Shown here piece by piece: positions 1,264 to 61,368 of a stretch of 64,000 nt of DNA. Each line of letters starts with the position of its first letter. Position 1 is the first letter of the stretch. The notes beneath the pieces were generated by a model, which saw only the letters and a program-made list of their open reading frames with translations, searched no databases and was not told the DNA's origin. The DNA lies in the NCBI GenBank assembly GCA_951799425.1, contig OX637394.1, positions 13,138,501 through 13,202,500 on the forward strand, read 5' to 3'. Both the position numbers and the translations under genes were made by a program. This DNA is from Ilex aquifolium. Its lineage: Eukaryota; Streptophyta; Magnoliopsida; Aquifoliales; Aquifoliaceae.

Positions 1264-1432
1264 AAAAAAAACAAATAAGGCAACTTCATGCCACGAATCG
1301 AGAGGCTGGTAATACCACACTCGTCATTGCCACGGGGATTTTATGTGTACCTTTTGACAATGATGTGACGGAAAGCATGTGACACATGTACATTCCAGAC
1401 ATGTGTAAGTCTAGGTCATATTATCACAGTCC
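1264..1432. repeat. Segmental duplication copy A (middle part)
   Basis: Matches 18184-18343 of copy B. It lies between the MULE-like element and the giant foldback element. No gene is seen. Confidence 0.8.
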
Positions 1433-1880
1433 AAAGGGTTCGACTACGGTACCGCCAGCCAGTTTTCGGTATGGTACCGGAAAAAAAAAATGAACGGTAG
1501 ATATATAAGGAAGAATTTCCACCGTTGATCAACTCTACAACTTTTTACCGGCTACCCACTGGCTTACAAATTCAAAAAAAAAAAAAAAAACTCAGGCGAA
1601 GAAGAAGAATATAGAGTTGCAGAATTATTTTTATCCCTTCAAGAGATTATAAAATCAAAATCATCATCATCATTTATTAAAATTAAGATTGAGATTATAG
1701 TAAAAAAAAAAAAAAAAACTGAGACGACGAAGAAGAAGATGGAGTTGCAACATTATTTTTGTTCCTATGAATAGATTTTAAATCATCATCATTTATTAAA
1801 ACTAAGGTTGAGATCATACAAAACTTATATTTAAAAAAAATAAATACATTTTTTGGTTATTTGCTTAAATTACACTGGTA
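1433..1880. repeat. Foldback left arm: terminal and outer unique block
   Basis: The terminal ~60 bp contain repeated GGTACCG-type motifs and pair imperfectly with 15250-15318. The section 1690-1880 pairs almost perfectly with 14800-14990. Between them (about 1500-1690) the arms have diverged: the right arm has different AT-rich DNA at 14990-15230. No gene is seen. Confidence 0.7.
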
Positions 1881-3060
1881 CCATTAACAGTAAAATTGGT
1901 TAAGATTATCAGTACCACTTTTATGGCTGAAATTACCACTTTTTTGGATAACATTACAACTGGTTAAAAGTACCTCTGTTTTGGTTAAGATTACCACTTT
2001 TTTTGTTAAGAATATAACTTTTTTGGTTAAGATTACAACTTTTTTGGTTAAGGGTACCACTTTTTTGTTTAAAATTAACACTGTTTCGATAAGAGTACCA
2101 CTTTTTTGGTTAACATTACCACTATTTTGGTTAAGAATACCACTGTTTTGGTTAAGAGTACCACTTTTTTGGTAAAAATTACAACTTTTTTGGTTAACAA
2201 TATTACTGTTTTGATTAAGAGTACCACTGTTTTAGTTAAGATTACAACTTGTTTGGTTAAGATTACAACTTTTTTGGTTAAGAGTACCACTTTTTTGGTT
2301 AACAATATCACTGTTTTGATTAAAAGTACCACTTTTTGGGTTAATATTACCATTTGTTTGGTTAAGAGTACCACTTTTTTGGTTAATTTTACCACTATTT
2401 TGGTTAAGAGTACCACTTTTTTTTGTTAACAATACCATTTTTTTGGTTATGATTATAACTTTTTTGGTTAAGATTACAACTTTTTTGATTAAAGGTACCA
2501 CTTTTTTGGTTAATTACCACTGTTTTTTCTAAGAGTATCATTTTTTTTGTTAACATTACCACTGTTTTGATTAAGAGTACAACTGTTTTGGTTAAGATTA
2601 CCACTCTTTTGGTTAAGATTACAACTTTTTTGGTTACCATTACTACTATTTTGGTCAAGAGTACCACTGTTTGGTTAACATTACCACTGTTTTGGTTAAG
2701 AGTACCACTGTTTTGGTTAATATTACCACTGTTTTGGTTAAGATTACCACTCTTTTGGTTAAGATTACAACTTTTGTGGTTAACATTACCACTGTTTTGG
2801 TTAAGAGTACCACTGTTTTGGTTAAGATTACCCCTTTTTTGGTTAAGATTACAACTTTTTTGGTTAAGAATACCACTGTTTTGGTTAAGATTACCACTTT
2901 TTTTTGTTAAGATTACAACTTTTCTGGTTAACATTACCACTGTTTGGTTAAGAGTACCACTGTTTTGGTTAAGATTACAACTTTTTTGGTTAAGAGTACC
3001 ACTTTTTTGGTTAACAATACCACTGTTTTGATTAAAAGTACAGTTTTGATTAAAATGTAA
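1881..3060. repeat. 21-bp minisatellite, left arm
   Basis: About 55 imperfect copies of a 21-bp unit of the form ACTTTTTTGGTTAAGATTACC. Because 21 is a multiple of 3, long open frames arise on both strands, reading as seven-residue repeats such as TTFLVKI or LTKKVVI. They are a by-product of the period and I do not call them genes. The inverted counterpart is 13640-14800. Confidence 0.9.
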
Positions 3061-3664
3061 TAATTGTAACTTAACCCAAAATATAACCCAAAAAAATGGC
3101 AACGTAAAATAGTGGCGAACTTAGATAACCTAATCTAACATCCTAATATTTTTAACTTTAATTTAATGTCAATCAACAACCCCAAATATTATAAATTTTT
3201 TAGTATATTTTTATTTAGTTTTAAATAAGATAAATAATCATCATTTATTAAAACTAAGATTTAGTGGTAGTCTTTTCATAAAAAAAAAAAAACTGGGAAG
3301 ATGAATGAGAAAGATTAAAATATGAAGTTGCAGAATTATTTTTATCTTATGAGATTATAAAATCATCATAATCATTTATTAAAACTAAGATTGAGATTAT
3401 AGTAAATTCATAAAAAAAAAAACTCACACGACAAAAAAAAAGGAATAAAGAAGAAGATGGAGTTGCAAAATTAAAACGAAGGTTAAGATTATAGAAAACT
3501 TATATTTAAAAAAAATAAATACACTTTTTTTTTGTTAAGATTATCACTTTTTTGATTAAAATTACAAGTAAAAATTTTTTGGTTAACAGTAACATTTTTT
3601 TGGTTAAGATTATCACTTATTTGGTTAAGAGTACCACTTTTATTATTAAAATTACCACTTTTTT
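3061..3664. repeat. Foldback left arm: inner unique block
   Basis: AT-rich DNA that partly repeats the outer block at 1600-1900 (poly-A, then AAGAAGATGGAGTTGCAA, then AAATACA) and ends in a few more minisatellite units. The arm therefore contains an internal duplication bracketing the minisatellite. The inverted counterpart is 13030-13640. Confidence 0.7.
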
Positions 3665-4060
3665 GGAGCGCTCATAGCGATCCTAAGGATCAAGTTTGCA
3701 AACCAATCTGGATTGGATCCCTACTATTCTTTGAGCGCTCAAACCAGCGATCAAGCTTGTCCAATAAATTTAACTTATACCCCTAAATTATCACATTTTT
3801 TTAAATTTTTTCATCATATTTTTCATATTACACCATCAACTATATAATTAGTTTCATATTACCCCAAATGTTTTTACATATTTTAATTTAACACCGGTCT
3901 ACCAAAAATTATAACTTTGTTATAATTTATTTAGCGTGAAAAATGTAATAATTTTAACTTAACCCAAAATATAACCCCCAAAAAATTGTGGCAGTATGTA
4001 ACATTGTAATAGCCAAAAAAAAAGTGCTAAACTTTAACATATAATTTTATACAATTAAAA
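3665..4060. repeat. Foldback left arm: GAGCGCTC block and AT-rich block
   Basis: A short GC-richer island (3666-3765) bounded by GAGCGCTC palindromes and containing CCAATCTGGATTGG, followed by AT-rich sequence. Its inverted counterpart at 12620-13030 is nearly identical, except for about 12 bp between direct GGATC-type repeats that are present on the right and missing on the left. Confidence 0.75.
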
Positions 4061-7000
4061 TTTAATTTATCAAATTAACATTCAATTCATCAAATTAACA
4101 CCAAATTAACAATAAATTTCATCAAATTAACATTCAATTTTTTCTAATCATTTAATTCACTAAATTAACATTCAAATTCAACTAGTTAACATTAAATTAA
4201 TCAAATAAACTTTTCATTTCATTCAATTAATACTCAATTCATCAAATTAACATTCTAATTATCAAATTAACTTTCGAATTTATCAAATTAACATTCAATT
4301 TCATAAAACTAACATCTAATTTATTAAATCAACACCAAATTAACATGTAATTTCACCCAATTTAAATTTAATGTATCAAATTAACACCAAATTAACATTC
4401 AATTCGTCAAATTAATATTCAATTCATCTAATTAACATCAAATTAACAATCAATTTCATCTAATTAACATTCAATTTTTTCTAATAACCATTTAATTCAC
4501 CAAATTAACATTCAAATTCAACTAGTTAACATTAAATTAATCAACTAAACTTTCAATTTCATTCTATTAATACTCAATTCATCAAATTAACATTCAAATT
4601 ATGAAATTAACATTCCAATTTATCAAATTGACATTCAATTTCATCAAATAAACATCAAATTAACATTCAATTCATCAAATTAACACCAAATTGACAATAA
4701 ATTTAATTTCATTAACATTCAATAATTTCAAATAACCATTTAATTCGTTAAATTAACATTCAAATTTAACTAGTTAATATTAAATTAATCAAATAAACTT
4801 TCGATTTCATTCAATTAGCACTCAATTCATCAAATTAACATTCAGATTTGTCAAATTGACATTAAATTTTATCAAATTAACAAGTAATTTCATCCAATTA
4901 AAATTTAATTTATCAAATTAAAATTAAATTAACATTCAATTCATCAAATTAACACTAAATTGACACTCAATTTCGTGAAATTAACATTCAATTTTTTCCA
5001 ATAAGCATTTAATTCACTAAATTAACATTCAAATTCAACTAGTTAACATTAAATTAATCAAATAAACTTTCAATTTCATTCTATTAACACTCAATTCATC
5101 AAATTAACATTCAAATTATCAAATTAACATTTCAATTTAGCAAATTGACATTCAATTTCATCAAATAAATACAAAATTAATATGTAATTTCATCCAATTA
5201 AAATTTAATTTATCAAATTAACACCAAATTAACAATCAATTTCATTTAATTAACATTCAATTTTTTCTAATAAGCTTTTAATTCACCAAATTATCATTCA
5301 AACTCAATTAGTTAACATTAAATTAATCAAATAAACTTTGAATTTCATTCAATTAACACTCAATTCATCAAATTAACATTCAGATTTGTCAAATTGACAT
5401 TAAATTTCATCAAATTAACATTCAATTTCATCCAATTAAAATTTAATTTATCAAATAAAAACTAAATTAACAGTCAATTCATCAAATTAACACTAAATTA
5501 ACACTCAATTTCATCTATTTAACATTTAATTTTTTCTAATAAGCATTTAATTCACTAAATTAACATTCAAATTCAACTAGTTAACATTAAATTAATCAAA
5601 TAAACTTTCAATTTCATTCTATTAACACTCAATTCATCAAATTAACATTCCAATTAACATGTAATTTTATTCAATTAAAATTTAATTTATCAAATTAACA
5701 CCAAATTAACATTCAATTCATCAAATTAACACCAAATTGACAATAAATATCATTTCTTTAACATTCAATATTTTCTAATAAGCATTTAATTCGTTAAATT
5801 AACATTCAAATTTAACTAGTTAACATTAAATTAATCAAATAAACTTTCAATTTCATTCCATTAGCACTCAATTCATCAAATTAACATTCAGATTTGTCAA
5901 ATTGACATTAGATTTCATCAAATTAACATATAATTTCACCCAATTAAAATTTTATTTATCAAATTAAAACAAAACTAACATTCAATTCATCAAATTAACA
6001 CTAAATTGATACTCAATTTCATCTAATTAACATTTAATTTTTTCTAATAAGCATTTAATTCAATAAATTAATATTCACATTCAACTAGTTAACATTAAAT
6101 TATTCAAATAAACTTTCAATTTCATTCAATTAACACTCAATACATCAAATTAACATTCAAATTATCAAATTAACATTTATATTTATCAAATTGACATTTA
6201 ATTTCATCAAATTAACTTGTAATTTCATCAAATCAACACAAAATTAACATTTAATTTTCTACACAATTAAAATTTAATTTATCAAATTAACATTCAATTC
6301 ATCAAATTAACAATCAATTTCATCTAATTAACATTCATTTTTTTTCTAATAAGCATTTAATTCACTAAATTAACAATTAAATTCAACTAGTTAACATTTA
6401 ATTAATCAAATAAACTTTCAATTTCATTCAATTAACATTCAATTCATCAAATTAACATCCAAATTATCAAATTAACTTTCAGATTTATCAAATTGACATT
6501 CAATTTCATCAAATTGACATGTAATTTCATCAAATCAACACCAAATTAATATGTAATTTCATCCAATGAAAATTTTAATTATCAAATTAAAACCAAATTA
6601 ACATTCAATTCATCAAATTAATATTTAATTCATCGAATTAACACCGAATTAAAACTCAATTTCTTCTAATTAACTTTCAATTTTTTCTAATGAGCATTTA
6701 ATTCACTAAATTAACATTCACATTCAACTAGTTAAAGTTAAATTAATCAAATAAACTTTCAATTTCATTATATTAACACTAAATTCAGCAAATTAACATT
6801 CAAATTATCAAATTTATCATATTGACATTCAATTCCATCAAATTAACATGTAATTTCATCAAATCAACACCAAATTAACATATAATTTTAAACAATTAAA
6901 ATTTAATTTATCAAATTAACGTTCAATTCATCAAATTAACCCCAAATTAATAATCAATTTTATCTAATTAACATTCATTTTTTTTCTAATAAGCATTTAA

Positions 7001-7225
7001 TTCACTAAATTAACAATAAAATTCAACTAATTAACATTAAATTAATCAAATAAACTTTCAATTTCATTCAATTAATACTCAATTCATCAAATTAACATTC
7101 AAATTATCAAATTAACATTCAGATTTATCAAATTGACATTTAATTTTCATCAAATTAACATGTAATTTCACGCAATTAAAATTTAATTTATTAAATGAAC
7201 ACCAAATTAACATTGAATTCATCAA
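4061..7225. repeat. AT-rich higher-order satellite array, left (about 11 units)
   Basis: Short subunits of about 20-30 bp (type CAAATTAACATTCAATT) are organised into larger units marked by ACTAGTTAAC. The markers fall near 4180, 4521, 4770, 5038, 5308, 5577, 5816, 6085, 6387, 6727 and 7027, giving spacings of 239-341 bp. No open reading frame of note exists. All units here are in one orientation. Confidence 0.88.
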
Positions 7226-10200
7226 ATTGAAAGTTAATTAAACGAAATTGAATGTTAATTTGATGAATTTGATGTTAATTTGATAAATTAAATTTTAATT
7301 GGATAAAATTATATATTAATTTGTTTTTTATTTGATGAAATTACAAGAAATTGAATGTCAATTGGATAAATCTAACTTTTAATTTAATAATTTGAACGGT
7401 AATTTGATAAATTGAGTGTTAATTGAATGAAATTAAAAGTTTATTTGATTAATTTAATATTAACTAGTTGAATTTGAATGGTAATTTAGGAAATTAAATG
7501 TTTATTAGAAAAAATTTAATATTAATTAGATGAAATTGAGTGTTAATTTGATAAATTGAATGTTAATTTGGTGTTAATTTGATATATTAAATTTTAATTG
7601 GATAATATTACAAGTTAATTTGGTGTTGATTTGATGAAATTACATGTTAATTTGATCAAATTTAATGTCAATTTGATAAATCTGAGTGTTAATTTTATAA
7701 TTTGAATGTTAATTTGATGAATTGAGTTTTAATGGAATGAAATTGAAAGTTTATTTGATTAATTTCATTTTAACTAGTTGATTTTAAATGTTAATTTAGT
7801 GAATTAAATGCTTATTTGAAAATTTGAATGTTAATTAGATGAAATTGATTGTTAATTTGGTGTAACATTGAAGAATTGAATGTTAATTTGGTGTTAATTT
7901 GATAAATTAAATTTTAATTGGTTAAAGTTATATCTTAATTTGGTGTTTATTTGATAAAATTACGTGTTAATTTGATGAAATTACATGACAATTTGATGAA
8001 ATTGAATGTCAATTTGATAAATCTGAAAAATTAATTTGATTATCTGAATGTTAATTTAATGAATTGAGTATTAATTAAATGAAATTGAAAGTTTATTTGA
8101 TTAATTCAATGTTAACTAGTTGAATTTGAATATTAAGTTAGTAAATTAAATGCTTATTAGAAAAAATTGAACGTTAATTAGATAAAATTGAGTGTTAATT
8201 TTGTGTTAGTTTGATGAATTGAATGTTAATTTAGTTTTAATTTGATAAATTTAATGTTAATTGGATGAAATTACATGTTAATTTGATGAAATTTAATGTC
8301 AAGTTGACAAATCTGAATGTTAATATGATGAATTGAGTGCTAATTGAATGAAATTGAAAGTTTATTTGATTAACTTAATGCTAACTAGTTAAATTTGAAT
8401 GTTAATTTAACGAATTAAATGCTTATTATAAAATATTGAATGTTAATTAAGTGAAATTAACAGTTAATTTGGTGTTAATTTGATGAATTGAATGTTCATT
8501 TGGCGTTAATTTGATAAATTAAATTTTAATTGGATGAAATTACATGTTAATTTGGTGTTTATTTGATGAAATTGAATGTCAATTTGCTAAATTGGAATGT
8601 TAATTTGAATGTTAATTTGATGAATTGAGTGTTAATAGAATTAAATTAAAAGTTTATTTGATTAATTTAATGTTAACTAGTCGATTTGATAAATTAAATT
8701 TTAATTGGTTGAAATTGAATGTTAATTTGATGAAATTTAAGGTCCATTTGACAAATCTGAACGTTAATTTGATGAATTGAGTGCTAATTGAATGAAATTC
8801 AAAGTTTATTTAATTAATTTATTTTTAACTAATTGAATTTGAATGTTAATTTGGTGAATTAAAAGCTTATTAGAAAATATTGAATGTTAATTAAATGAAA
8901 TTGATTGTTAATTTTGGTCTTAATTTGATGAATTGAATGTTAATTTGGTATTAATTTGATAAATTAAATTTTAATTGTATGAAAATAAATGTTAATTTGG
9001 TATTTATTTGATGAAATTGAATGTCAATTTGCTAAATTGGAATGTTAATTTGATAATTCGAACGTTAATTTGATGAATTAAGTGTAAATAGAATGAGAAT
9101 GAAAGTTTATATGATTAATTTAATGTTAACTATTTGAATTTAAATGTTAATTTAGTGAATTAAATGCTGATTAGAAAGAATTGAATGTTAATTAGATTAA
9201 ATTGAGTGTTAATTTATTGTTAATTTGATGAATTGAATGTTAATTTAGTTTTAATTGGATGAAATTCAATGTTAATTTGATGAAATTTAATGTCAATTTG
9301 ACAAATCTGAATGTTAATTTGATGAATTGAGTTCTAATTGAATGAAATTCAAAGTTTATTTGATTAATTTAATGTTAACTAATTGAATTTGAATGTTAAT
9401 TTGGTGAATTATAATCTTATTTGAAAAAATTGAATGTTAATTAGAAGAAATTCAGCGTTATTGTGGAGTTAATTCGATGAATAGAATATTAATTTGATGA
9501 ATTGAATGTTAATTATGTTTTATTTTGATAAATTAAATTTTAATTGCATGAAATTACATGTTAATTTGTTGTTGATTTGATGAAATTACATGTTAATTTG
9601 ATGAAATTGAATGTCACGTTAATAAATCTGAAAGTTAATTTGATTATCTGAATGTTAATTAGGTGAATTGAGTGTCAATTGAATGAAACTGAAAGTTTGT
9701 TTGATTAATTCAATGTTATATAGTTGAATTTGAATGTTAATTTAGTGAATTAAATGCTTATTAGAAAAAATTGAATGTTAATTACTTGAAATTGAGTATT
9801 AATTTAGTGTTAATTTGTTGAATTTAATGTTAATTTAGTTCTAATTTGATAAATTAAATTTTAATTGGATGAAATTACATATTAATTTGATGAAATTTAA
9901 TGTCAATTTGACAAATCTGAATGTTAATTTGATGAATTGAGTGCTAATTGAATGAAATTGAAAGTTTATTTGATTAATTTAAGGTTAACTAGTTAAATTT
10001 GAATGTTAATTTAACGAATTAAATGCTTATTATAAAATATTGAATGTTAATGAAATGAAATTTATTGTCAATTTGATGTTAATTTGATGAATTGAATGTT
10101 AATTTAGTGTTAATTTGATAAATTAAATTTTAATTGAATGAAATTAGATGTTAATTGGAATGTTAATTTGATAATTTTAATGTTAATTTGTTGAATTGAG

Positions 10201-12640
10201 TGTTCATAGTATGAAATTGAAAATTTATTTGATTAATTTAATGTTAACTAGTTGAATTTGAATGTTAATTCATTGAATTAAATGTTTATTAGAAAAAATT
10301 GGATGTTAATTAGAGGAAATTCAGTGTTAATTTAGTGTTAATTTGAGGAATTGAATGTTAATTTAGTTTTAATTTGATAAATTAAATTTTAATTGGATGA
10401 AATTGAATGTTAATTTGATGAAATTTAATGTCGATTTGATAAATCTGAATGTTAATTTAATGAAATTGAAAGTTTATTTGATTAATTTAATGTTAACTAG
10501 TTGAATTTGAATGTTAATTCAGCGAATTAAATGCTTTTTAGAAAAAATTGAATGTTAATTAGATGAAATTGAGTATTAATTTAGTGTTAATTTGATGTAT
10601 TGAATGTTAATTTAGTTTTAATTTGATAAATTAAATTTTAATTGGATGAAATTGAATGTTAATTTGATTAAATTTAATGTCAATTTGACAAATCTGAATG
10701 TTAATTTGATGAATTGAGTGCTAATTGAATGAATTTCAAAGTTTATTTGATTAATTTAATGTTAACTAATTGAATTTGAATGTTAATTTGGTGAATTAAA
10801 AGCTTATTAGAAAATATTGAATGTTAATTAAATGAAATTCATTGTTAATTTTGTGTTAATTTGAGGAATTGAATGTTAATTTGGTGTTAATTTGATAAAT
10901 TAAATTTTAATTGGATGAAATTACATGTTAATTTGGTATTTATTTGATGAAATTCATTGTCAATTTGCTAAATTGGAATGTTAATTTGATAATTTGAATG
11001 TTAATTTGATGAATTGAGTGTAAATATAATGAAATTGAAAGTTTATTTGATTAATTTAATGTTAACTAGTTGAATTTGAATGTTAATTTAGTGAATGAAA
11101 TGATTATTAGAAAAAATTGAATGTTAATTAGGTGAAATTAAGTGTTAATTTAGTGTTAATTTGATGAATTGAATGTTAATTTAGTTTTAATTTGATAAAT
11201 TAAATTTTAATTGTATGAAATTACATGTTAATTTGATGAAATTTATTGTCAATTTGACAAATCTGAATATTAATTTGATGAATTGAGTGCTAATTGAATG
11301 AAATTCAAAGTTTATTTGATTAATTTAATGTTAACTAATTGAATTTGAATGTTAATTTGGTGAATTAAAAGCTTATTAGAAAATTTGAATGTTAATTAAA
11401 TAAAATTGATTGTTAATTTGGTGTTAATTTGATGAATTGGATGTTAATTTGATAAATTAAATTTTAATTTGATGAAATTACGTATTAATTTGGTATTTAT
11501 TTGATGAAATTGAATGTCAATTTGCTAAATTGGAATGTTAATTTGATAATTTGAATGTTAATTTGATGAATTGAGTGTTAATAGAATGAAATTGAAAGTT
11601 TATTTGATTAATTTAATGTTAATTAGTTGAATTTGTATGTTAATTTAGTGAATTAAATGCTTATTAGAAAAAATTTATTGTTAATTACATGAAATTGAGT
11701 GTCAATTTAGTGTTAATTTGATGAATTGAATCTTAATTTAATTTTAATTTGATAAATTAAATTTTAATTGGATGAAATTACTTGTTAATTTGATAAAATT
11801 TAGTGTCAATTTGACAAATCTGAATGTTAATTTGATGAATTGAGTGGTAATTGAATAAAATCGAAAGTTTATTTGATTAATTTAATATTAACTAGTTAAA
11901 TTTGAATGTTAATTTAACGAATTAAATGGTTATTAGAAATTATTGAATGTTAATGAAATTAAATTTATTGTCAATTTGGTGTTAATTTGATAAATTAAAT
12001 ATTAATTTGCTGTTCATTTGATGAAATTAAATGTCAATTTGATAAATTGGAATGTTAATTTCATAATTTGAATGTTAATTTGATGAATTGAGTATTAATA
12101 GAATGAAATTGAAAGTTTAGTTGATTAATTTAATGTTAACTAGTTGAATTTGAATGTTAATTTGGTGAATTAAATGGTTATTAGAAAAAATTGAATGTTA
12201 ATTAGATGAAATTGATTGTTAATTTGATGTTAATTTGATGAATTAAATATTAATTTGACGAATTGAATGTTAATTTGGTGTTAATTTGATAAATTAAATT
12301 TGAATTGGATGAAATTACATGTTAATTTGGTGTTGATTTGATAAATTAGATGTTAGTTTGATGAAATTGAATGTCAATTTGATAAATTCGAATGTTAATT
12401 TGATAATTAGAATGTTAATTTGATGAATTGAGTATTAATTGAATGAAATGAAAAGTTTATTTGATTAATTTAATGTTAACTAGTTGAATTTGAATGTTAA
12501 TTTAGTGAATTAAATGCTTATTAGAAAAAATTGAATGTTAATTTGATGAAATTTATTGTTAATTTGGTGTTAATTTGATGAATTGAATGTTAATTTGATA
12601 AATTAAATTTTAATTGTATAAAATTATATGTTAAAGTTTA
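7226..12640. repeat. AT-rich higher-order satellite array, right, inverted (about 19 units)
   Basis: The same satellite in opposite orientation (type AATTGAATGTTAATTTG, marker GTTAACTAGTT or variants). Markers fall near 7455, 7770, 8115, 8385, 8678, 8832, 9130, 9379, 9718, 9988, 10248, 10497, 10757, 11067, 11334, 11622, 11893, 12138 and 12479. The right array holds about 8 more units than the left, so the palindrome is asymmetric only in its satellite. Confidence 0.88.
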
Positions 12641-13640
12641 GCACAATTTTTTTGGCTATTACAATGTTACATACTGCCACAATTTTTTGGGTAAAATTAC
12701 TTTTTTTGGGGGTTATATTTTGGGTTAAGTTAAAATTATTATATTTTTCACGCTAAATAAATTATAACAAAGTTATATTTTTGGTAGACCGGTGTTAAAT
12801 TAAAATAGGTAAAAACATTTGGGGTAATATGAAAATAATTATATAGTTGATGGTGTAATATGAAAAATATGATGAAAAAATTTAAAAAATGTGATAATTT
12901 AGGGGTATAAGTTAAATTTATTGGACAAGCTTGATCGCTGGTTTGAGCGCTCAAAGAATAGTAGGGATCCAATCCAGATTGGTTTGCAAACTTGATCCTT
13001 AAGTGAATAGTGGATCGCTATGAGCGCTCCAAAAAAGTGGTAATTTTAATAATAAAAGTGGCACTCTTAACCAAATAAGTGATAATCTTAACCAAAAAAA
13101 TGTTACTGTTAACCAAAAAAGTTTTACTTGTAATTTTAATCAAAAAAGTGATAATCTTAACAAAAAAAAAGTGTATTTATTTTTTTTAAATATAAGTTTA
13201 CTATAATTTTAACCTTCGTTTTAATTTTGCAACTCCATCTTCTTCTTTATTCCTTCTTTTTTGTCGTGTGAGTTTTTTTTTTTATGAATTTAATATAATC
13301 TCAATCTTAGTTTTAATAAATGATTATGATGATTTTATAATCTCATAAGATAAAAATAATTCTGCAACTTCATACTTTAATCTTTCTCATTTATCTTCCC
13401 AGTTTTTTTTTTTTTTTTATGAAAAGACTACCACTCAATCTTAGTTTTAATAAATGATGATTATTTATCTTATTTAAAACTAAATAAAAATATACTAAAA
13501 AAATTATAATATTTGGGGTTGTTGGTTGACATTAAATTTAAGTTAAAAATATTAGAATGTTAGATTAGGTTATCTAAGTTCACCACTATTTTACGTTGCC
13601 ATTTTTTGGGGTTATATTTTGGGTTAAGTTAAAATTATTA
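12641..13640. repeat. Foldback right arm: inner blocks
   Basis: Inverted copy of 3061-4040. It contains the GAGCGCTC-bounded island at about 12930-13030 and the inner poly-A/GATGGAGTTGCAA block at 13190-13450. Short open frames here have no recognisable product. Confidence 0.75.
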
Positions 13641-14800
13641 CATTTTAATCAAAATAGTACTTTTAATCAAAACAGTGGTATTGTTAACCAAAAAAGTGGT
13701 ACTCTTAACCAAAAAAGTTGTAATCTTAACCAAAACAGTGGTACTCTTAACCAAACAGTGGTAATGTTAACCAGAAAAGTTGTAATCTTAACAAAAAAAG
13801 TGGTAATCTTAATCAAAACAGTTATATTCTTAACCAAAAAAGTTGTAATCTTAACCAAAAAAGGGTAATCTTAATCAAAACAGTGGTACTCTTAACCAAA
13901 ACAGTGGTAATGTTAACCACAAAAGTTGTAATCTTAACCAAAAGAGTGGTAATCTTAACCAAAACAGTGGTAATCTTAACCAAAACAGTGGTACTCTTAA
14001 CAAAAATAATGGTAATGTTAACCAAACAGTGGTACTCTTAACCAAAATAGTGGTAATGTTAACCAAAAAAGTTGTAATCTTAACCAAAAGAGTGGTAATC
14101 TTAACCAAAACAATTGTACTCTTAATCAAAACAGTGATAATGTTAACAAAAAAAATGATACTCTTAGAAAAAACAGTGGTAATTAACCAAAAAAGTGGTA
14201 CCTTTAATCAAAAAAGTTATAATCTTAACCAAAAAAGTTATAATCATAACCAAAAAAATGGTATTGTTAACAAAAAAAGTGGTACTTTTAACCAAAACAG
14301 TGGTAAAATTAACCAAAAAAATGGTACTCTTAACCAAACAAATGGTAATATTAACCCAAAAAATGGTACTTTTAATCAAAACAGTGATATTGTTAACCAA
14401 AAAAGTGGTACTCTTAACCAAAAAAGTTATAATTTTAACCAAACAAGTGGTAATCTTAACCAAAACAGTGGTACTCTTAATCAAAACAGTAGTATTGTTA
14501 ACCAAAAAAGTTGTAATCTTTACCAAAAAAGTGGTACTCTTAATCAAAACAGTGGTACTCTTAACCAAAACAGTGGTAATGTTAACAAAAAAAGTGGTAC
14601 TCTTATCGAAACAGTGTTAATTTTAAACAAAAAAATAGTACCCTTAACCAAAAAAGTGGTAATCTTAACCAAAACAGAGGTACTTTTAACCAGTGGTAAT
14701 GTTATCCAAAAAAGTGGTAATTTCAGCCATAAAAGTGGTATTATTAACCAAAAAAGTGATAATCTTAACCAATTTTACTGTTAATGGTACCAGTGTAATT
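13641..14800. repeat. 21-bp minisatellite, right arm (inverted)
   Basis: Inverted partner of 1881-3060, with the unit reading GGTAATCTTAACCAAAAAAGT and variants. Lengths in the two arms are close (about 1.16-1.18 kb). The seven-residue-repeat open frames are again by-products of the 21-bp period. Confidence 0.9.
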
Positions 14801-15318
14801 TAAGCAAATAACCAAAAAATGTATTTATTTTTTTTAAATATAAGTTTAGTATGATCTCAACCTTAGTTTTAATAAATGATGATGATTTAAAATCTATTCA
14901 TAGGAACAAAAATAATTTTGCAACTCCATCTTCTTCTTCGTCGTCTCAGTTTTTTTTTTTACTATAATCTCAATCTTAATTTTAATAAATGATGATGATA
15001 ATTTTGATTTTGTTATATTTTTATTTCATGTTTAAATATAATAAATAATTATTATTTTAATTTCTATTATCACTTATTTTTAAAGTGTATAGGGTTTATG
15101 TTCATCTTCACTCATTAACTTGTACATTTTTTCTTATATTTTTATTTCATGTTTAAATATAATGAATAATCATCATTTTAAATTTTTTAAAGTATATATC
15201 GAAACCGGTGAAACCGGTTATAGGTTTTTATGAATTTTGAAGTATACACGTGGCGAGCATTCAGTTCTTTTAATTTTTCGGTATCGTACCGATTTTTACC
15301 TTTTCGGTACCGAAGCCA
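14801..15318. repeat. Foldback right arm: outer and terminal block
   Basis: 14800-14990 pairs with 1690-1880. 14990-15230 has no close partner in the left arm and contains a local duplication of TATTTTTATTTCATGTTTAA. The terminal stretch 15270-15318 has paired GGTACCGA motifs like the left end. Confidence 0.65.
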
Positions 15319-15900
15319 AGTCCTCCAATAAAATATGATTCGTGGCATGTGTAAGTTAAGGTCATATGCCACAACAATTGGTCACCTACGTTTAGTACAC
15401 GATAATTTTTTTAAATAGAAATAAAATAAACATGTGAAAACACTAATTTCAATTGATGATCATGTTTTTAGGAAATAGAAAAGAAAGCCAATGTCTTAAT
15501 CCTTCACAAAATTCTAAAACAAATTTGAGATTGTTGACTAAAGTTAGTGAATACTTACCTAAAATTGTTGACAATGTGAAATCTAGCCCCTTGCATCACA
15601 AAGAAATGAGAAAGAAGCAAACAATGGTTGGGAGGGATGGATTGCCATGCTTCTCGTCGACGATTTAGCTTGATTACTGACAGGGTAAGGAATGGGTAAT
15701 ACTATGGTGTATTTGGGAATGACTAATATATTCCATGATTTATGAGATTAGGAATGGAAATTAAATTATATTCCTACAAACCAAGCACAGGAATGAGTAT
15801 TACTAATGTAGTAGAAATGTAAAAAGAGAAGAATGTGTCTACCAAAATAAGGAAACCCAACATAACAATTTAACATAGGAAAATGTTATAATTACTAAAA
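15319..15900. repeat. Segmental duplication copy A (right part)
   Basis: 15325-15440 matches 18345-18455, and 15440-15800 matches 19318-19690 of copy B. It includes a GGAATGGGTAATAC...GGAATGAGTATTACTAA segment that looks like a small MITE shared by both copies. The similarity fades after about 15800. The reading frame at 15453-15668 is not conserved in copy B (indels), so I do not call a gene. Confidence 0.75.
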
Positions 15901-17970: not shown

Positions 17971-18457
17971 TTTTCCATTATACCAACAAAAGGTAAAGAA
18001 ATATAGGTTTCATTTAGACATACTAAGAATAACAACCTCAGTAATTAAACCCTCTTGTTTTCAAAATTTTACATGATGGGTCGGGTCGGACAACTGATGA
18101 CCCGTTAGGCTCGGTTTGACGTTGACATGGCATTTGAGGGAGGGACCTGCCTGTACTGTGTGTCATCAACGAGACAAAAAAACAAATAAGGCAACTTAAA
18201 TGCCACGAATCGAGAGGCTGGTAATACCACACTCGTCATTGCCACGGGAAATTTATGTGTACGTTTGACAATGATGTGAGGGAAAACATGAGACACATGT
18301 AGATTCCTGACATGTGCAAGTCTAAGTCATTTTGTCATAGTCCAGCAAAATATGATTCGTTGCATGTGTAAGTAAATGTCATATGTTATGATAATTGGTC
18401 ACTTTTGTTTAGTAAACAATAATGTTTTTAAATAGAAATAAAATAAACATGCGAATT
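17971..18457. repeat. Segmental duplication copy B (left part); empty site for two insertions
   Basis: Matches 1-216, 1264-1432 and 15319-15440 of copy A without the MULE-like element and without the 13.9-kb foldback. It shows the unoccupied target near 18180 and near 18345. No gene is seen. Confidence 0.85.
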
Positions 18458-18731
18458 TTCTTTTTTTTGAAACAGAAAAAGGGGACGGAGGCCAACCAAT
18501 AGGTAGTGACCCCATTAGGCGTGACCATGAGGGTTTCCCCCAAATGTGAAATGTTCGGTTAGTCATAGCTATAGACCCTTTTGGAGTAGTCCGTCACCAC
18601 ACCACTACCGGAGCCTAAGTAATAAAGACATGGGGATTCCGTAAATCGAACACTGCTTGCTAATCACGTGGGAGTCAAGATACAACCTAAAGACGGACAT
18701 GTCTTACCACTAGACCACCAGCCCCGGTGGT
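18458..18731 (-). mobile_element. tRNA-derived SINE
   Basis: Read on the minus strand, the head carries a Pol III A box (TGGTCTAGTGG, 18707-18717) and, about 55 bp on, a B-box-like TGTTCGATTTA (about 18643-18653). The body ends in an A-rich tail (18461-18470 on the plus strand). It is flanked by AACATGCGAATT (18446-18457) and AACGTGTGAATT (18732-18743), a 12-bp target duplication with two differences. Copy A has no insertion at this point. Typical of a plant tRNA-SINE; the family is not identified. Confidence 0.8.
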
Positions 18732-18743
18732 AACGTGTGAATT

Positions 18744-19315
18744 GAATACACGCAAGAATGACCTTTCTAATATTTAATAACAGTTGAGGTTTGTTTATAT
18801 GCGAGAATGGAATTTACTTTCAAATCAAACATAATTCTGTCTGTACATTGTTCTTAGCCATAGATAAATAGTAATAATAATAATAAGTACCATGTTTTTG
18901 CACCGCATAGCATCCTACAAAATATGAGAAAGTCGTGGGCCTAACTACTCGAAGTTTTGTGTCTCTTAGTCATAGATCTTCATCTTCACAAATCTTTTTT
19001 TTCTAATCATGGATTGCAATCAGCGCCAATAACACAGTCAAACATAGTATTTTATATATGCAAAAAACAAGATGTTGTCGACACAAAAGTGAATACAAGA
19101 GAATATTATCAACTGTGAGTTTTATCATAAATGCTAAATAAGGACGGCAAACATTCAAAACTTGAAAAATAAATATCAAACTAAAGCTCATATATTCCCA
19201 AGGCTGGCATTCTAAACTAAATAAGAAATAAAGAAACATAAATTTCAAAAAAACTCAAAAGAAAATTTCATGTCTTTCCCCAGTTGATTTTAGAATCTAC
19301 CAATGCATTATATTT
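18744..19315. other. Segment present only in copy B
   Basis: About 570 bp absent from copy A, which runs directly from its equivalent of 18455 to that of 19318. It could be a deletion in A or a further insertion in B. No gene or clear element ends are seen. Confidence 0.5.
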
Positions 19316-19745
19316 TCAAATAACACTAATTTCCATTGATGATCATGCTTTTAGGAAATAGAAAAGAAAGTCAATATCTTAACCCTACACAAAATTCTAA
19401 AATAGATTTGAGACTGTTGGCTAAACTTAGTGAGGACTTACCTGAAATTGGTGACAATGTGAAATCTAGCCCTTGCATCACAAAGAAATGAGGAAGAAGC
19501 AAACAATGGTTGGGAGGGATGGACTACCATACTTCTCGTCGACGATTTAGCTTGATTACCGTCTGGGTAAGGAATGGGTAATACTTTGGTTTATTTGGGA
19601 ATGACTTATATATCCTATGATTTATGAGATTAGTTATTTCTTAGAAATGAAAATGAAATTCTATTCTTACAAACCAAACAAAGGAATGAGTATTACTAAG
19701 GAATGATCATTCCATTCCTAAGATTTAATATAGCGTACCAAACGT
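19316..19745. repeat. Segmental duplication copy B (right part)
   Basis: Matches 15428-15800 at roughly 90% by eye. The last part (19570-19745) looks like a small MITE, with TTTGGT near one end and ACCAAACGTAGCATT near the other. Confidence 0.75.
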
Positions 19746-21209: not shown

Positions 21210-21406
21210 AATCCTAAACGTTTTCGCAACGTGCTTATATTTCAGTGGTTTTTATCACGTGTTTTCGTGTCTTCTCAGTGTCCACTTCGTCAAAGCATAA
21301 TAGAGTACACAATCCCAACTCTCTTTGTTTTCTTAAACTTCACTTCACTACATATATACTACTTTCATATCGCCCCATGCACATCTCTCTCTCTCTCTCT
21401 CTCAGT

Positions 21407-22165
21407 ATGGATTTTGAGGATGACCAATTTTCAACTACGTCATCTTCTTCTTCGTCCTCTTCTGATGTTATCGCTACAAACCCTAATACCCAATCACGAA
21501 GCAATCTGCCATCTCTCTCCCATAAGCGAAAGGCAGGGAGGAAGAAGTTCAAGGAGACGCGCCACCCCATCTACCGAGGTGTGCGGCGGAGAAATGGAAG
21601 CAAATGGGTGTGTGAATTACGCGAACCAAACAAGAAGTCAAGGATATGGCTAGGGACCTTTCCTACACCAGAAATGGCTGCTAGGGCACATGACGTGGCT
21701 GCCCTAGCACTTCGTGGGGAAGCAACCGCTCTCAACTTTCCCGACTCAGCTCAGGTTCTTCCCCGAGCTAAGTCAACTTCACGCAGGGACATACAAGTGG
21801 CAGCTCTAGCCGCTGCTGAAGTTTTCCGGCCACGTGCTGCCTCACCCTCCTCGTCCTCATCTTCTTCACTTAACTTTTCACAGGACACAAGTCTAAGGGA
21901 GGTCAATAGACCTTCCTCATTAACTGTGAAGAGTGAGAAGAAGGTTGTAGAGCCTTCTGCATCGGCTTGTGTTCATGGACCAACAGAAGAGGGTTCGGAA
22001 ACATCCACGGCATTGTTCATGGACGAGGAGGCATTGTTTAACATGCCTGGTTTGATTGACAGCATGGCAGAGGGTATGCTTCTTACTCCACCAGCTATGA
22101 AAAGAGGGTTTAATTGGGATGGTGAGATGGCTCATGACATGGACTTCACCTTGTGGAAGGACTAA
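21407..22165 (+). CDS. DREB1: DREB1/CBF-like AP2/ERF transcription factor
   Basis: Single-exon gene of 252 aa, the usual size for intronless CBF/DREB1 proteins. The AP2 domain spans residues about 56-113 and has the DREB-type Val68 and Glu73, which favour DRE/CRT (CCGAC) sites. Just before it lies the CBF signature, here [15 protein letters not shown] (40-54). After it the usual DSAWR is replaced by DSAQVLPR (113-120). The N-terminus (9-19) and residues 146-154 are serine-rich, and the C-terminus is acidic, ending in FTLWKD rather than the common LWSY/F. Expected role: nuclear activator in cold or drought response. An in-frame ATG also exists 30 bp upstream (21377), but that extension is encoded by the CT-repeat leader, and the chosen ATG has the better context (G at +4). 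Subgroup III is clear; exact orthology within it is not. Confidence 0.95.
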
Positions 22166-29955: not shown

Positions 29956-32900
29956 CTACAAAGCAGAAACTTCCAATTTCCTAAGCCGAGAAATGCGTTT
30001 TCGGTGGCCACGGCCCTGTTTATGTTGTTCCCACTCATGCGCCCCTCTGAGTACCCTGTCGCTGCATGCCTACCAGTGAAAAGAGTCGTAGACCCATCAA
30101 TATTCCAATCAATGCATATGAATTAACAGCATAAAATGCACACACAAGGGCACCCATACAAACACCAGAGAGAGAGAGAGTACCACAACTATCACTAACC
30201 TTGCACACATATTGAGTCCACAGGTCCCTTTGGATCAATTTCAATGCTTGGGTGCCTTTTATGGCCTCGGAGTCAAGTGCTGCACAGGCATCCTTATCAA
30301 GGAATGACTTGATTATTCTCACGGAGGGCTCAACAACATGTGCTGCCCATAAATCATTACTTGTACCTGCGTATTGAATGTTCAATCTGATTCAGTCTTA
30401 ACACCTGGAGGCTGGAACATGTCATCTCATGAAACAAGAAAATCATGCTGACTATGAAAAACTTGTTAGCACTTCGAAAGACATGCCTGCTAAGGAATCC
30501 GTGGAATCAACACTATTTATGTCCCAGCCAAACAACGTTTGTAATCTACTAAGCCTCCTCTTCTGGGAAACAACAGGGTTATCAGCAATAAAGCATCAAA
30601 TTAATATACAACAACAAAGTTTCAATGCTCATTCCATGATGTTTAATTCAATACTGGAAACACATTTATCTAAACATTCAAAAATGTTCAGGACACCAAT
30701 ATTGTATGAGACGGATTGTTAGGCGACTAGGAAACAACATGGTGACAAAATTAGTGTAGCGCAAATAAGAATACTATTGTGGATGTGTGGAAAAACTAGA
30801 AATGATAGAATACAAAATGACAATTAGAGAAATGGTAGAAATAGCTTCAATTGAGGATAAGTTAAGAGAGAATAGATTAAGATGGTTTGGTCATGTTCAA
30901 CGAAGCCGATAGATGCACCGGTTCGAAAAAGTGATAGAATATCTCTTAATGGTACTAAAAGTAGGGATAGACCTAAATTAATATTGAACGAAATAATAAG
31001 AAAAGATATAAAAATATTTAACTTCAATGAGGGTATAGCGCATGATCGAAATGAATGGCGAAGACGGACTCATAAGGCTTGGTTTGGTTTTGGTTATTCA
31101 AAAAACGTTCAATGTTTGAAGAAGATTATACCTCCTCTTACTGAAAAGCAACAAATTTTTTTAGATATAATCAAAACAAGAAGGTTGGTAAACCACTCTG
31201 ACATGGATCTATAGAAATAACTTACTAACTTGGTGAGAATTTATTTACGAACACATTAAATCTTTTCTGCTTTTACCAAAGTAATTCATCTAGCTTTTCG
31301 AAAAACATGAATAAGAAGAGAAAATGGGGGAACAACAGTTTCACAGAAACACTTTACACTATTTGAAAGACAACTTAAGAAAAACTGAATATCAAGGGAG
31401 AGGCAGCACATTAACTCAGTAAAAGTAGATTTCAAAAGTATGGGCAGAATTTGGAAGTTTCATGAATGATTAGCCAATTGCTCACAAAGTCAAGCAACCA
31501 TTACTTTTCTCAATATAAAATATGGGATGAAATATGATCCAACAAAGAAAAGGGAGAGGCAAACTAAAAATCCAGAGAAATTGTCTGGAAAAGGAACACC
31601 AAGTGGGATCAAAGAAACTAGTTGGTTCTATGAGCAATTTAATGAGAAATTCCAAATAAATACCAAATGAGAAATTTAATGAGAAATTCCAAACTAGTTG
31701 GTTCTATGAGCAATCACCAAATAAATACCAAACCAAACTACAGCCCACTTGGTTCTCTTGCTCCTTACTCATGGAGCATCATACCGAAACAAAAGAAGGA
31801 TTCAATCAAGCCCATAGGTTCTATGAGCAATTTAATGAGAAATCAAGATGCTTGCCACTAGCTGCAGTGTAATAAGGAGAAAAATAATGCAAACGAATAA
31901 ACAAATCCCAAAAAAAAAAAAAAAGAAATTGCTCACTTGACGACGAACAAGTCTTCGAGTGTTCACTTTTACTTTGTCAATGGCATCATTTAATAAAAGA
32001 TTTTGTTGGTTCTCCTTGGAGGCATTCAGGAATTCCCACACATTTTCTTTCAACATCTTACAGTTGTCATTTGATGACATCTGAAAATGGGAGCCATCTG
32101 TACTGTTCGCACCACAAGTGTAAACTCTCAGAAAATCCTCAAATTCTCGGACACCAATAGCCTGCCGTAAACCTCGAGTATAGTTTGCATTCAAGTTGTA
32201 GATATCATAGACTTCATTAAGCAAACCAGCATTAACCATGTGATCTACTCTTTGCTCCACATATCGATCCAATGCAGGGAGTGATGCATCCACGCATATA
32301 AAACAGCAAATGTATCTGAAACTATCAGCTTTACCCCAGTTCTGCCCTGTCACATGCGATATTAGGAAATTATTCAAGAGCAAACAGGTCAGATTGGCAT
32401 TATCTCATGCGCTCAAATAAATTGGTTTCATCCTGGCAATTACAGATTCCATCTATACTGTTCCAACTTCCCCAGTAGGAAAACAGGTCAAAGTTTGAAA
32501 ACCCAGCAAATTACCATATCGAAAATATCAAAATATTTTCGTTTTCCCTTTTCCTTTTCTTTTTTTGCAAAGAGTAATGCAAATTGAGCTTTCTAACTTT
32601 GACCAACTCTTTTCCAGTAACCAATAAGCATCTCATAATTCAAATTTTTGCATTTAATGCTTCTTTAGTAGTTAAAAAGCAACTTCAATAAAAGATAGGC
32701 AGGCAGAACAACTACATCATTGTTGCTCCTGATAAAAGTGTCCCACAATCAAACCTCTTTTTACAAAGAAGATGCCTAATACTGCTGACATTAGCCACTT
32801 ACAACCATGTAGGCAACTGAGAAAGCAGTACAAACCTGCATGGATGTCCCCTGAAGAAGTTTACTTGGAAGAACACCGGAGCGAGCATACATACAAAGGT

Positions 32901-40903: not shown

Positions 40904-42144
40904 TTATATGGTCCTTCTCAATTGGGTCCCATCTTCTATCCTGGAGTACTTATTGATTCGGGCCATCAACCCGCCCATATCCGCTGACGTTTTCTTTGTT
41001 AAGGACTTGTAAAGGTCGGTGTCCCTGGAAAGGCCAAGTCTAAAAGAGGTCGCAACCATGACCTCTGAGAATCCCTCCACCTCGTTCACTTCTTCCCAGT
41101 ATCGAGTGGCGTACTGGCGGAGTGTTTCACCTTCTTTCCATCTCAGGGTTAGTAGTGACCCAACATCCTTGGGGCGCTTGCTCCCTGTGATGAATCGGGC
41201 AGAAAATTGTCTGGTCAGCTCCTTCCAAGACCCTATGCTGTTGGGTGGAAGGGTTTCAAACCATTTCATAGCATTGTCCCCCAGGCTCATTGAGAACACC
41301 CGGCATAGCAACCGGTGATTCAAGTGGTACAGAGAAATCATTTGCTTGTATTGCCTGAGATGGGCCTCCGGGTCAGAACGCTCATCATAAACCTTGAACC
41401 TTGGTACCGCAAACTTCTTTGGGACCTCCATCTCCACGATATGCATAGTGAAGGGCGACTAGATAGCTTCGTTGTCAGTGTCATCCTCCAGGGTGACCTT
41501 ATCCCTCCTCGTAGGATCCAACCATACCCCGAGGTCTTCCCTCTACTTGGGGTGCATTTCTCCACCTTCTCAGCATCAGTCAACATGCCCCCCAGTTCCA
41601 AGGTGTCGGACGGAGAGGGTTGACCCCTCCTCGGACTCCTCCACGCCCCCTCGCCCGGACAGTCCCCGACAAAGGTCATTCCAAGCCAATGGCCTAGTCC
41701 TCTTGGCTGGAACCTCCAGGAGCTGTCCCTTGGCCCTTGGGCGCTTCGGAGCCTTGAAGCTCCTTGCTCTGCTACTCAGACGGTTTCTGAAGTCCCCAGG
41801 TCCCACCTCCCTGACGGATGGCTCCCGTGACTATGCAAGTCTCGAGATCCTCCGCTGGAGAGTGCGAATTCATTGAGCCGATTTAGGACGTTCAAGTTGT
41901 CCTCTTCTAACTGTCGTAGTCGATCCCCGAACCGAGCTTCAATCACATCAGCAAGTTGACGGGCCAAAGGGGTCGATTTTCCAGCCCCGATATTCAAACT
42001 AGTTTGGCAGGTTTTCTCCCTAGAATGAACGGAAAGTTCTTTGTTGACATTTTCAATGCGGCCCTTCGTTCTCAACATGGAGGGAGCCGGTAAATCTATG
42101 TTCCTTTGCTGAAGACCCTTTCCCGATTGACGAGTATTCACCAT
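40904..42144 (-). pseudogene. gag of element 1, interrupted
   Basis: Starts at ATG 42144 (MVNTRQSGKG...), 30 bp beyond the primer-binding site. The first frame stops at 41776, a middle part appears in another frame (41679-41338), and the conserved part is open from 41446 to 40904. That last part reads as a Retrotrans_gag domain: VPRFKVYDERSDPEAHL, MKWFETLPPNSI, W.ELTRQFSARF, ETLRQYATRYWEEV. At least one frameshift or stop separates the N-terminal part from this domain. No CCHC zinc knuckle is seen downstream. Confidence 0.85.
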
Positions 42145-52671: not shown

Positions 52672-53621
52672 TTAGACAAGGGAATCTATGTTCTTGCTCA
52701 GCTCCTCCAGCTTCTTCATCCTTACTTTCTCACTTTCGCTCACCAACTGGCCAATTAATCATACATATTAAGAACAACATAAGCAAAACTAGAATCAAAT
52801 CTACACACACACACACACACACACGCACACACATATATATGGTGGCTGAGTTTTAAGTTGGACCAAAAGATCACAAAAGTTACCTCCATCAATCTGGTTA
52901 GCAGTTGAGTTTTTTCCTTGTTCTTCTCATTCAAAGCTTCAAGGGCTTCTTTGTATTCCTTTTCCTATTCAAGAAAACACACATTAGGATCAAACAAATT
53001 TCTTACAAGTGAAGTAAAGTTCACCAAAGTTTTTATACTGTTTCACCTTCTTCTGGCAGGTCTGTCCCAATGGCTTTAACTCTCGATTGACCACATCGAT
53101 CTTCTTTCGTACAAGTGAAACTTCCTTCCTCATTGGATCTGCAAGAGCTTCAAGCTCCTAATAAAATTCAATCACACACAATAAGAAGTGTAAATTATAT
53201 ATACACATAATGAACAATTTTATATTCAATCTTATTATGTACAATTGTTGTGTATGTTAAAGCAAGACATATCCAAAAGTGATCTTTCATTGTTCCAACA
53301 TTAATGATCTGATAGTTTGTCGAGTGATTATAGAAAAGAAAGAACTTCCAATTTATTGTTCAACTTTACCTCTCGAATCTCAGCCAACTTCTTGGTTTCT
53401 TCTTCCACGCGGCCCAACTTAGCCTGAACCTTGTCCCTGACTTCCATCTTCTTCCTCTCGATCTCTTCTTCCTTAGCCCGAAACACAGAAAGAGCTGACT
53501 TTGTCATCTCCTCCTCCTTGTCTTCATTCATTGGGCTGTCACTGAAACTAATAATTCCTGATTTCTTCATGCGCAGCATCTGTGATTGTTGCTGCTCCGG
53601 TATCTGCATCTGTGTTTCCAT
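52672..53621 (-). CDS. DUF662 / RAB6-interacting golgin-like protein
   Basis: Four coding exons in transcript order: 53621-53370, 53157-53047, 52964-52884 and 52746-52672 (stop TAA). They join in frame to 172 aa, the usual length for this plant family (Pfam PF04949). All junctions are GT-AG in phase 0. Diagnostic stretches: KSALSVFRAKEEEIERKKME, VEEETKKLAEIRE, ELEALADPMRKEV, RELKPLGQTCQKK, EKEYKEALEALNEKN and KVRMKKLEELSKNID. The protein is almost entirely charged coiled coil with no membrane segment or signal peptide; Golgi association is only inferred from the family name. The frame stays open upstream to an acceptor at 53717, so a longer N-terminus is possible, but the first in-frame ATG is 53621. 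That upstream part is probably 5' UTR. Confidence 0.92.
52803..52838. repeat. (CA)n microsatellite in an intron
   Basis: A CA run followed by a short TA run, in the last intron of the DUF662 gene. Confidence 0.9.
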
Positions 53622-53889
53622 TGATGCCTCCACAGAACCCTTCTTGTATTCCTGGTGATTCTCTTTTATATTCTCTCTTCTTTGGCTTTGTGCTTTTAAT
53701 GATGGTTTCTCTTTCCCCTGTTAGAGATGCTAATGAACAACAACTAGCTTTAAAGGTATGAAACCAACTGGCTTTCTTTGTAACAAATATTTGAATCAGA
53801 TGAAAAGACCAAAATGCCTACTCATGGTATTATGCAAAAGTTAGGGAGTGTTTCCCTTTAATTTACTGTACAGTTACTCTGCCTAAAAC

Positions 53890-60360: not shown

Positions 60361-61368
60361 TCAAATTTTGTTAGTGCCTTTGTGGCTTCTTTTTTTAGAG
60401 TCGGGCGTAGGTGGTGATGATGACGGTGAGGACTCACCTCGCCTCGCTTTGGTGACATCCTTGGTGTTTATGTATTTCTGAGCTTTTGCCCACAATTCTG
60501 ACATGCTCTTTGGTGGGTGCTTCATCATTGAGAAGAAAAAACTAGATGAGCGTAGGCCTCCCAAGAAATCGGTCATGGTAACCTTGTCATCGGGCTCCTC
60601 AATGTGAAGGACCTCCTCGTTAAAACGAGTGAAGTAACTTCTCAGGCTTTCATCACAGTCCTGTTTTATGCTGAGCAGATGGGTGGCAGGCTTCTGGTGG
60701 CGGCGTCCGCCAATGAATTGTGCCACAAAGGATCTACTCAGTTCGGCGAAAGAGCCTATGGAGATCAGGGTGAGTTTGACGAACCATTGTCGCGCTGATC
60801 CCTTCAAGGTAGTTGGGAATGCCCTACACATAATTTCGTTGAGGATGTTGTACAGCTGCATTAAGGTCTTGTAGGTTTCAAGGTGATCAAGTGGATCCTT
60901 TGTACCGTCGAAAGTTTCTACAGATAACATTTTGAACTTTTGGAGAAGTGGGTAGTTCGCCACATCTGGTATGAAGGGTGTGTTGGTTCGCCTTACCAGG
61001 TAATCGACGGTTTCGAGTCCTTATACCTTCATGGCGTTGAAGACGTCGCCTAACTGATTATGCACTTCTTTGATTTTTTCATCCCAGTGGTTGAGAGCTC
61101 ATTTGGAATTGTCGAGAAAATGGCTCCCATGCTCCACACTTTGGTTTTCGCCCTCATCCTCTTGGAAATGTGGGTCTCCACTATGAGAAGAAGGAACTGG
61201 AGGAGGAGGTGGAGGTGGAGGTCCTTCATAGTGGGCTACCCTATGTGGGGCGCCAAAGGGGGCTCCCAAGGGAGCACCCAAGTGGGGATCTCCTTGACGC
61301 CCAGGGCGTGGAGTTCCTCTAGCTTGAGGTTCTCTGGGTTGTGCTCCTCCTTGTTGTTCAGTGAGCAT
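60361..61368 (-). pseudogene. gag of element 2, interrupted
   Basis: The N-terminal part (61368-61099) is proline-rich. The Retrotrans_gag core is open from 60963 to 60361: MLSVETFDGTKDPLDHLETY, CRAFPTTLKGSARQWF, SFAELSRSFVAQF, ESLRSYFTRFNEEVL. A stop or frameshift between 61098 and 60964 separates them. The C-terminal region has a Ser/Pro stretch instead of a zinc knuckle. The core differs clearly in sequence from gag of element 1, so the two belong to different families. Confidence 0.85.

Follow-up and report, generated by a model that had tools for sequence, protein, structure and literature searches.

A stretch of 64,000 nucleotides from Ilex aquifolium (contig OX637394.1, positions 13,138,501 to 13,202,500; hereafter the window) contains a palindromic element of almost 14 kb. 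Judging from its sequence, this element very probably (roughly 0.92) belongs to a young family of non-autonomous foldback Mutator-like elements (MULEs) that is present in multiple copies in this plant genome. The duplications of its family and its ends place it with the foldback MULEs; of the described cases considered, the nearest are FARE, Tm1 and MuTAnT.

The arms of FARE, a foldback element of Arabidopsis, are described as long and palindromic, and FARE is classed as a MULE (PMC3169594, PMC4486113). These traits, known to us from published descriptions, are shared by the Ilex element; the two differ in size and content. FARE1 is about 1.1 kb long and large FARE2 elements carry an open reading frame (ORF), whereas the nine copies measured here span 11.5–14.9 kb and consist almost wholly of arms.

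In Tm1 from root-knot nematodes, the foldback arms are reported to be composite and to contain tandem motifs; its target-site duplications are mostly of 9 bp, some members have a transposase and others lack it, and short motifs occur at the termini beyond the inverted repeat (PMC3169594). Composite arms with tandem motifs, 9-bp duplications and terminal motifs beyond the inverted repeat recur in Ilex. However, the Tm1 transposase is described as Phantom-type (FLYWCH), while the candidate here is FAR1-type, and the Tm1 repeated motif is given as about 14 bp, in contrast to arrays of 21-bp and other units. For MuTAnT and AutoMuTAnT of Medicago, the source describes modular fold-back long inverted repeats with 9-nt duplications and a related element encoding an 833-aa Jittery-like transposase (PMC4486113). 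The Ilex family resembles them in the first two respects and has a candidate transposase of 837 aa in a relative, but MuTAnT elements, as described there, measure from about 0.2 to >1.6 kb and reside in TA microsatellites, whereas the Ilex copies of 11.5–14.9 kb occupy varied 9-bp targets.

More distant parallels come from Tetris and Galileo of Drosophila, foldbacks whose arms likewise contain internal tandem repeats; those of Galileo are reported to hold extra transposase binding sites. Galileo differs in its P-superfamily transposase, and both differ in their animal host; they are likened here by description. The VANDAL elements, MULEs of Arabidopsis, share with the Ilex element non-coding tandem-repeat regions, which are reported targets of silencing and anti-silencing. 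Their terminal inverted repeats are described as degenerated, whereas such repeats are present here (further sources for the foldback and VANDAL comparisons: PMC10398659, PMC2528002, PMC4079207).

An initial sequence-only reading of the window had proposed an undescribed element. The family is taken as new, since none of the open-licence papers listed, judged by titles and abstracts, seems to describe it; its kind is known from foldback MULEs such as FARE, with which it was compared by description only.

Structure and insertion site of the window element

The element and its parts are as follows (window coordinates).

1436..15323, no strand: whole element, 13,888 bp
1436..1454, plus: left terminal inverted repeat, GGGTTCGACTACGGTACCG
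1436..1650, plus: left end block, 215 bp, unmirrored on the right
1651..1912, plus: arm block A, left, 98.8% identical to the right copy
1913..3056, plus: 21-bp minisatellite array, left, unit TACCACTTTTTTGGTTAAGAT
3057..3526, plus: arm block A2B, left, 97.0% identical to the right copy
3527..3666, plus: short 21-bp array, left
3667..4033, plus: arm block C, left, with GAGCGCTC and GCGATC motifs, 98.6% identical to the right copy
4034..7235, plus: AT-rich core minisatellite, CAAATTAACATTCAATTT type, left
7236..12634, minus: core minisatellite, right, about 2.2 kb longer than the left
12635..13028, minus: arm block C, right
13029..13168, minus: short 21-bp array, right
13169..13641, minus: arm block A2B, right
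13642..14756, minus: 21-bp minisatellite array, right
14757..15011, minus: arm block A, right
15012..15323, minus: right end block, 312 bp, unmirrored on the left, 93.6–98.1% identical in ten other stretches examined
15305..15323, minus: right terminal inverted repeat, GGACTTGGCTTCGGTACCG on the reverse strand, agreeing with the left at 14 of 19 positions
1430..1435, plus: left flank TCCAAA, probably the target-site duplication minus 3 bp
15324..15332, plus: right target-site copy, TCCAATAAA
18341..18349, plus: empty paralogous target site, TCCAGCAAA

The sequence-only reading had placed an inverted repeat of about 14 kb at 1433–15318 with a centre near 7230. The palindrome itself is borne out by self-BLAST, in which 1651–7116 aligns with the reverse complement of 15011–9468 (88.9% over 5,642 columns, E = 0), but the bounds are 1436 and 15323, as defined by the terminal motifs, the empty paralog and other copies with matching ends. 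The axis also has to be moved: since the arms are unequal in length (5.8 kb on the left, 8.1 kb and thus about 2.3 kb more on the right, with a right core array about 2.2 kb longer), the outer arms mirror each other around position ~8,340, and ~7,230 is the point where the arms meet rather than the midpoint.

From the outside inwards, each arm consists of block A, a 21-bp array, A2B, a short 21-bp array, C and the AT-rich core array. Minisatellite makes up the bulk of the element. Across 3,649 aligned bases, with a further 127 columns of gaps, the outer arms (1651–5353 and 15011–11290) reach 97.5% identity; the value is 97.0% for the array between A and A2B, 98.6% for the short array and 97.3% for the outer 1.3 kb of the core. 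In the inner core arrays (5354–7235 and 7236–11289), of which the right one is longer, identity is 88.1% over 1,789 aligned bases, and 2,358 columns are gaps. Between 7,100 and 7,300 both the orientation of the core repeats and the C/G skew switch strand. A single hairpin with a loop at 7240–7245 is predicted for 6600–7900, that is, for the middle 1.3 kb only, at −553.7 kcal/mol, an energy given without a shuffle control at this length. The element thus has the long inverted arms with tandem repeats that characterize foldbacks, its ability to fold back being predicted. Beyond the 19-bp terminal repeat and a second CGGTA motif, little is shared between its two unmirrored end blocks, of 215 bp on the left side and 312 bp on the right side. 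Terminal inverted repeats occur in many, not all, MULEs, and GGGTTCGACTACGGTACCG and GGACTTGGCTTCGGTACCG form such a pair here.

The element has no middle domain and, as had been claimed from the sequence alone, no recognisable coding capacity: all four ORFs of ≥150 aa within it lie inside 21-bp arrays. None of the Rfam families scored up to its gathering threshold in the window, and the tRNA search by ARAGORN (bacterial code) was negative.

The sequence surrounding the element is duplicated at 17,971–19,699, and this paralog preserves the unoccupied site. On the left side 1265–1433 matches 18176–18344 (90.6% identity), on the right side 15324–15438 matches 18341–18455 (85.2%), and both matches meet at TCCA. 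The paralogous segment 18,176–18,344 continues uninterrupted into 18,341–18,455, precisely where the window copy holds the element. The suggestion of an insertion into one copy of a duplicated segment, the other being unbroken near 18345, is therefore upheld, with the empty site at 18,341. The flanks TCCAAA and TCCAATAAA are taken to be a 9-bp duplication that has probably lost 3 bp on the left.

The duplicated segment carries two other differences between its copies. A separate insertion of about 1.04 kb (229–1264) is missing from the paralog; its inverted ends are imperfect (GGGTAAATTA at the start, TAATTTATCC at the end), and it resembles a short inverted-repeat element. Conversely, about 0.87 kb at 18456–19321 is found only in the paralogous copy, possibly another small insertion.

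Dispersed copies and a candidate transposase

The host assembly (G000, 800 Mb; the window corresponds to C4:13,138,501-13,202,500) was searched with 1433–1880, a probe already put forward in the sequence-only reading for finding other copies. Forty of 317 candidates were scored, giving 49 matches, and the site counts obtained by pairing matches are lower bounds. At least 25 insertion sites were found at 89–100% identity, the window included, and at least 8 further sites at 75–79%. Among those 25 sites, 7 are matched by both arms, 4 by the left end only and 14 only by the query part common to both arms. At nine of these 14 sites 20 kb was examined, and the other end, of a variant type, was seen at seven (C8, C7, C1a, C14, C9, C13, C15) and not found within the 20 kb at C10 and C12. 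Nine copies were measured and range from 11,486 to 14,911 bp.

Thirteen of the 14 two-ended copies were tested for target-site duplications, one C4 copy being left out. Exact 9-bp duplications in register flank six of them: C14 (CATATTATT), C15 (ATACTAGTG), C1b (CAAAATAAA), C5 (TAAATTGTA), C3a (GGCAACTGT) and C8b (TTCATTGGA). In a seventh copy, C8, the duplication TTTCAGACC is offset by 2 bp of end erosion. As a control, mismatched flank pairings gave no match in 156 cases. The 9-bp duplication of MULEs is thus present at the level of the family, and the duplications of the copies elsewhere, together with the empty paralog, support the earlier proposal that a foldback transposon arrived as a unit.

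Two arrangements of the left arm can be distinguished. In the window copy it repeats the right-arm modules within a distinct 215-bp end, and in C1b it likewise repeats right-arm modules, although A2B was not found in that left arm. In the seven variant copies, the end of the left arm is instead of the variant type, its 21-bp array is longer, and a GCGATC-rich block takes the place that A2B and C have in the window copy. Identities of ≥97% were obtained for 90 of 91 copy pairs in A2B, 65 of 78 in C and 408 of 435 in A; the lowest pairwise values are 96.9%, 91.1% (C1c) and 95.8%, respectively. Trees of the three blocks are star-like and nearly unresolved (block A with 30 rows, 23 of them different, after 13 of 43 were dropped as repeats of joined stretches; A2B and C with 14 rows each, of which 12 are different in C, where the C1b left block is entered twice). 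Taken together, the sequences indicate a young, multi-copy family. The two A2B blocks of the window copy each lie about 1.6% from the tree centre, farther than those of other copies, which suggests that this copy is older than the others; its A blocks do not stand out in the A tree.

The C10 site has an unusual composition. In C10:986900-1006899 (L031-L032), the right end and block A are followed by about 60 bp of 21-bp array and then by about 18 kb of other sequence. An open frame of 542 aa in this sequence matches cytochrome P450 (PF00067), and a further ORF appears hAT-like on visual inspection; a core array starts beyond it all, at 19182. The explanation may be insertions nested in one another, a pair of truncated copies, or a giant element that has captured genes.

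The sequence-only reading had also envisaged a transposase-bearing relative, and the C12 site provides one in part. The right-arm blocks and right end are present there at 91–98% identity. Inwards of them the sequence becomes unique and holds an 837-aa ORF, uninterrupted and in line with the right arm; the left end was not seen. The ORF matches the Pfam families MULE (6.8e-28), FAR1 (6.5e-23) and SWIM (4.4e-5); FLYWCH, a feature of Tm1 and Phantom, was not found in it by Pfam. Many of its named matches, among those listed, are FAR1-RELATED SEQUENCE 5-like. Across the genome the transposase is present in at least 12 copies at 92–100% identity over nearly the full length, at least 9 of them without a stop (54 of 2,013 candidates scored).

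Two side observations concern the same stretch. About 2.6 kb downstream of the C12 ORF, two adjacent reverse-strand ORFs (L042:1191-2612) resemble PF20167, a putative plant transposon protein, with a score under the curated cut-off; two Rhododendron proteins, among 120 matches listed, join PF20167 to FAR1-MULE. L041:803-3156 is a tandem duplication, at 97% identity, of a 1.13-kb unit that contains a 21-bp array.

Alternative explanations and proposed mechanism

Several observations weigh against the classification as a foldback MULE family with a transposase source at C12. The duplication of the window copy is imperfect, with 9-mers CAGTCCAAA on the left and TCCAATAAA on the right, and among the 13 copies tested C7, C1a, C9, C13 and C1c also lack an exact 9-bp duplication. 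C1c is odd in other ways: its left end was located by motif scan only, with 5 mismatches, and its block C matches those of the remotest other copies at only about 91%. In the 20 kb of C12 examined no left end was seen, which makes the ORF and the right arm only a candidate single element, and among the listed places none of the other 11 transposase copies lies within 25 kb of a family site.

The last two points favor the most serious alternative, in which a truncated foldback copy at C12 happens to have an unrelated transposon, the FAR1-MULE, as its neighbour and the foldbacks are moved by another MULE. It competes with the named source of transposase, not with the foldback MULE classification itself, and we consider it a substantial minority possibility. 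Against it, 21-bp family arrays flank the ORF on both sides (about 71–85% identity, one stretch near 67%), and in 125,277 bases scanned outside the other elements such arrays turned up in the C10 element only. Family blocks also adjoin the core array on the coding side: one resembles block C (82%), and the other, 85 bp long, has 97.6% identity with a portion of the right end in other copies. A FAR1-type MULE, represented by the C12 relative, is the likeliest candidate for the transposase source. If it is a transposase-bearing member, a left family end should lie upstream of C12:19,860,000, with the 9-mer CTTTTTGCT just outside.

It is highly improbable that the family consists of hAT- or P-type foldbacks (Galileo being a P-type foldback) moved by a non-MULE transposase. 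The terminal and subterminal CGGTACCG motifs do resemble some plant hAT ends. However, target-site duplications of the hAT and P superfamilies are 7–8 bp long, whereas those of the Ilex family are 9 bp and in register, so that a hAT-like reading of the ends from this motif was rejected and the 7–8-bp duplications of a Galileo-type element are not seen. Moreover, the element ends begin with GG, and the sole transposase found between family arrays is that of a MULE. For the ORF of hAT-like appearance at C10 no connection with the ends is evident, and a Pfam search with a 152-aa piece of this ORF gave no match.

The chance of an assembly artefact is slighter still. Long near-identical inverted arms are a classic source of such errors, and a self-folded read or two misjoined loci could in principle create a false palindrome. 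The outer arms, however, show 2.5% divergence as well as indels, the core arrays are unequal by about 2.2 kb, and the blocks at the two extremes are unlike each other. A join of two loci, named in the sequence-only reading as what could overturn it, is very unlikely because the same ends and modules recur on other contigs, where they come with target-site duplications. With differing arms and many copies the artefact was rejected, and the dispersed copies with 9-bp duplications argue for a foldback MULE instead. Finally, an immobile inverted segmental duplication formed in place, or head-to-head satellite arrays, would agree with an element that is mostly minisatellite but is scarcely credible given the empty paralog, the defined ends and the dispersed copies with target-site duplications.

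For the foldback MULE family we propose the following mechanism. A MULE transposase supplied in trans, probably from a FAR1-type MULE of the C12 kind, would bind the terminal repeats and perhaps also sites in the arrays. It would excise the whole hairpin-capable unit by cut-and-paste, and the unit would then insert with a 9-bp staggered cut. The likeness of the arms would be kept by the youth of the copies, perhaps also by arm-to-arm exchange, while array length would be free to change, which would account for the unequal arms.

By analogy, the arrays may add transposase binding sites, as reported for Galileo, or be targets of silencing and anti-silencing, as reported for VANDAL elements. A more specific version, which we regard as doubtful, is that the minisatellites act in cis as platforms with hundreds of sites for the FAR1-type transposase, perhaps with a PF20167-like companion, in a binding or anti-silencing role similar to that of the VANC arrays of VANDALs.

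Other features of the window and significance of the family

Elsewhere in the window, two retrotransposon gag ORFs are located at 40907–41458 and 60364–61020. Further ORFs match AP2 (21218–22162), IPP transferase (31835–32404) and a Transcrip_act domain (53331–53720). Among 120 of 177 protein matches listed for an IPP-transferase-like ORF, some of them from plants, identity does not exceed 64%.

Foldback transposons as such are known; what distinguishes the Ilex family is the dispersal of 11–15 kb palindromes without recognisable genes. Giant palindromes of this kind could mislead both assembly and annotation, and very long double-stranded RNA might arise from them; the sequence-only reading had suggested that a transcript of the palindrome could form a hairpin and supply small-RNA pathways. 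Their arm blocks are mostly 97–100% alike and the copies often carry exact duplications, which makes the family a good natural test system for asking how a long, near-perfect hairpin survives replication and silencing, how the likeness of arms is maintained and what role the arm repeats play. If the platform idea is true, a gene-free 14-kb hairpin would outcompete its own autonomous partner.

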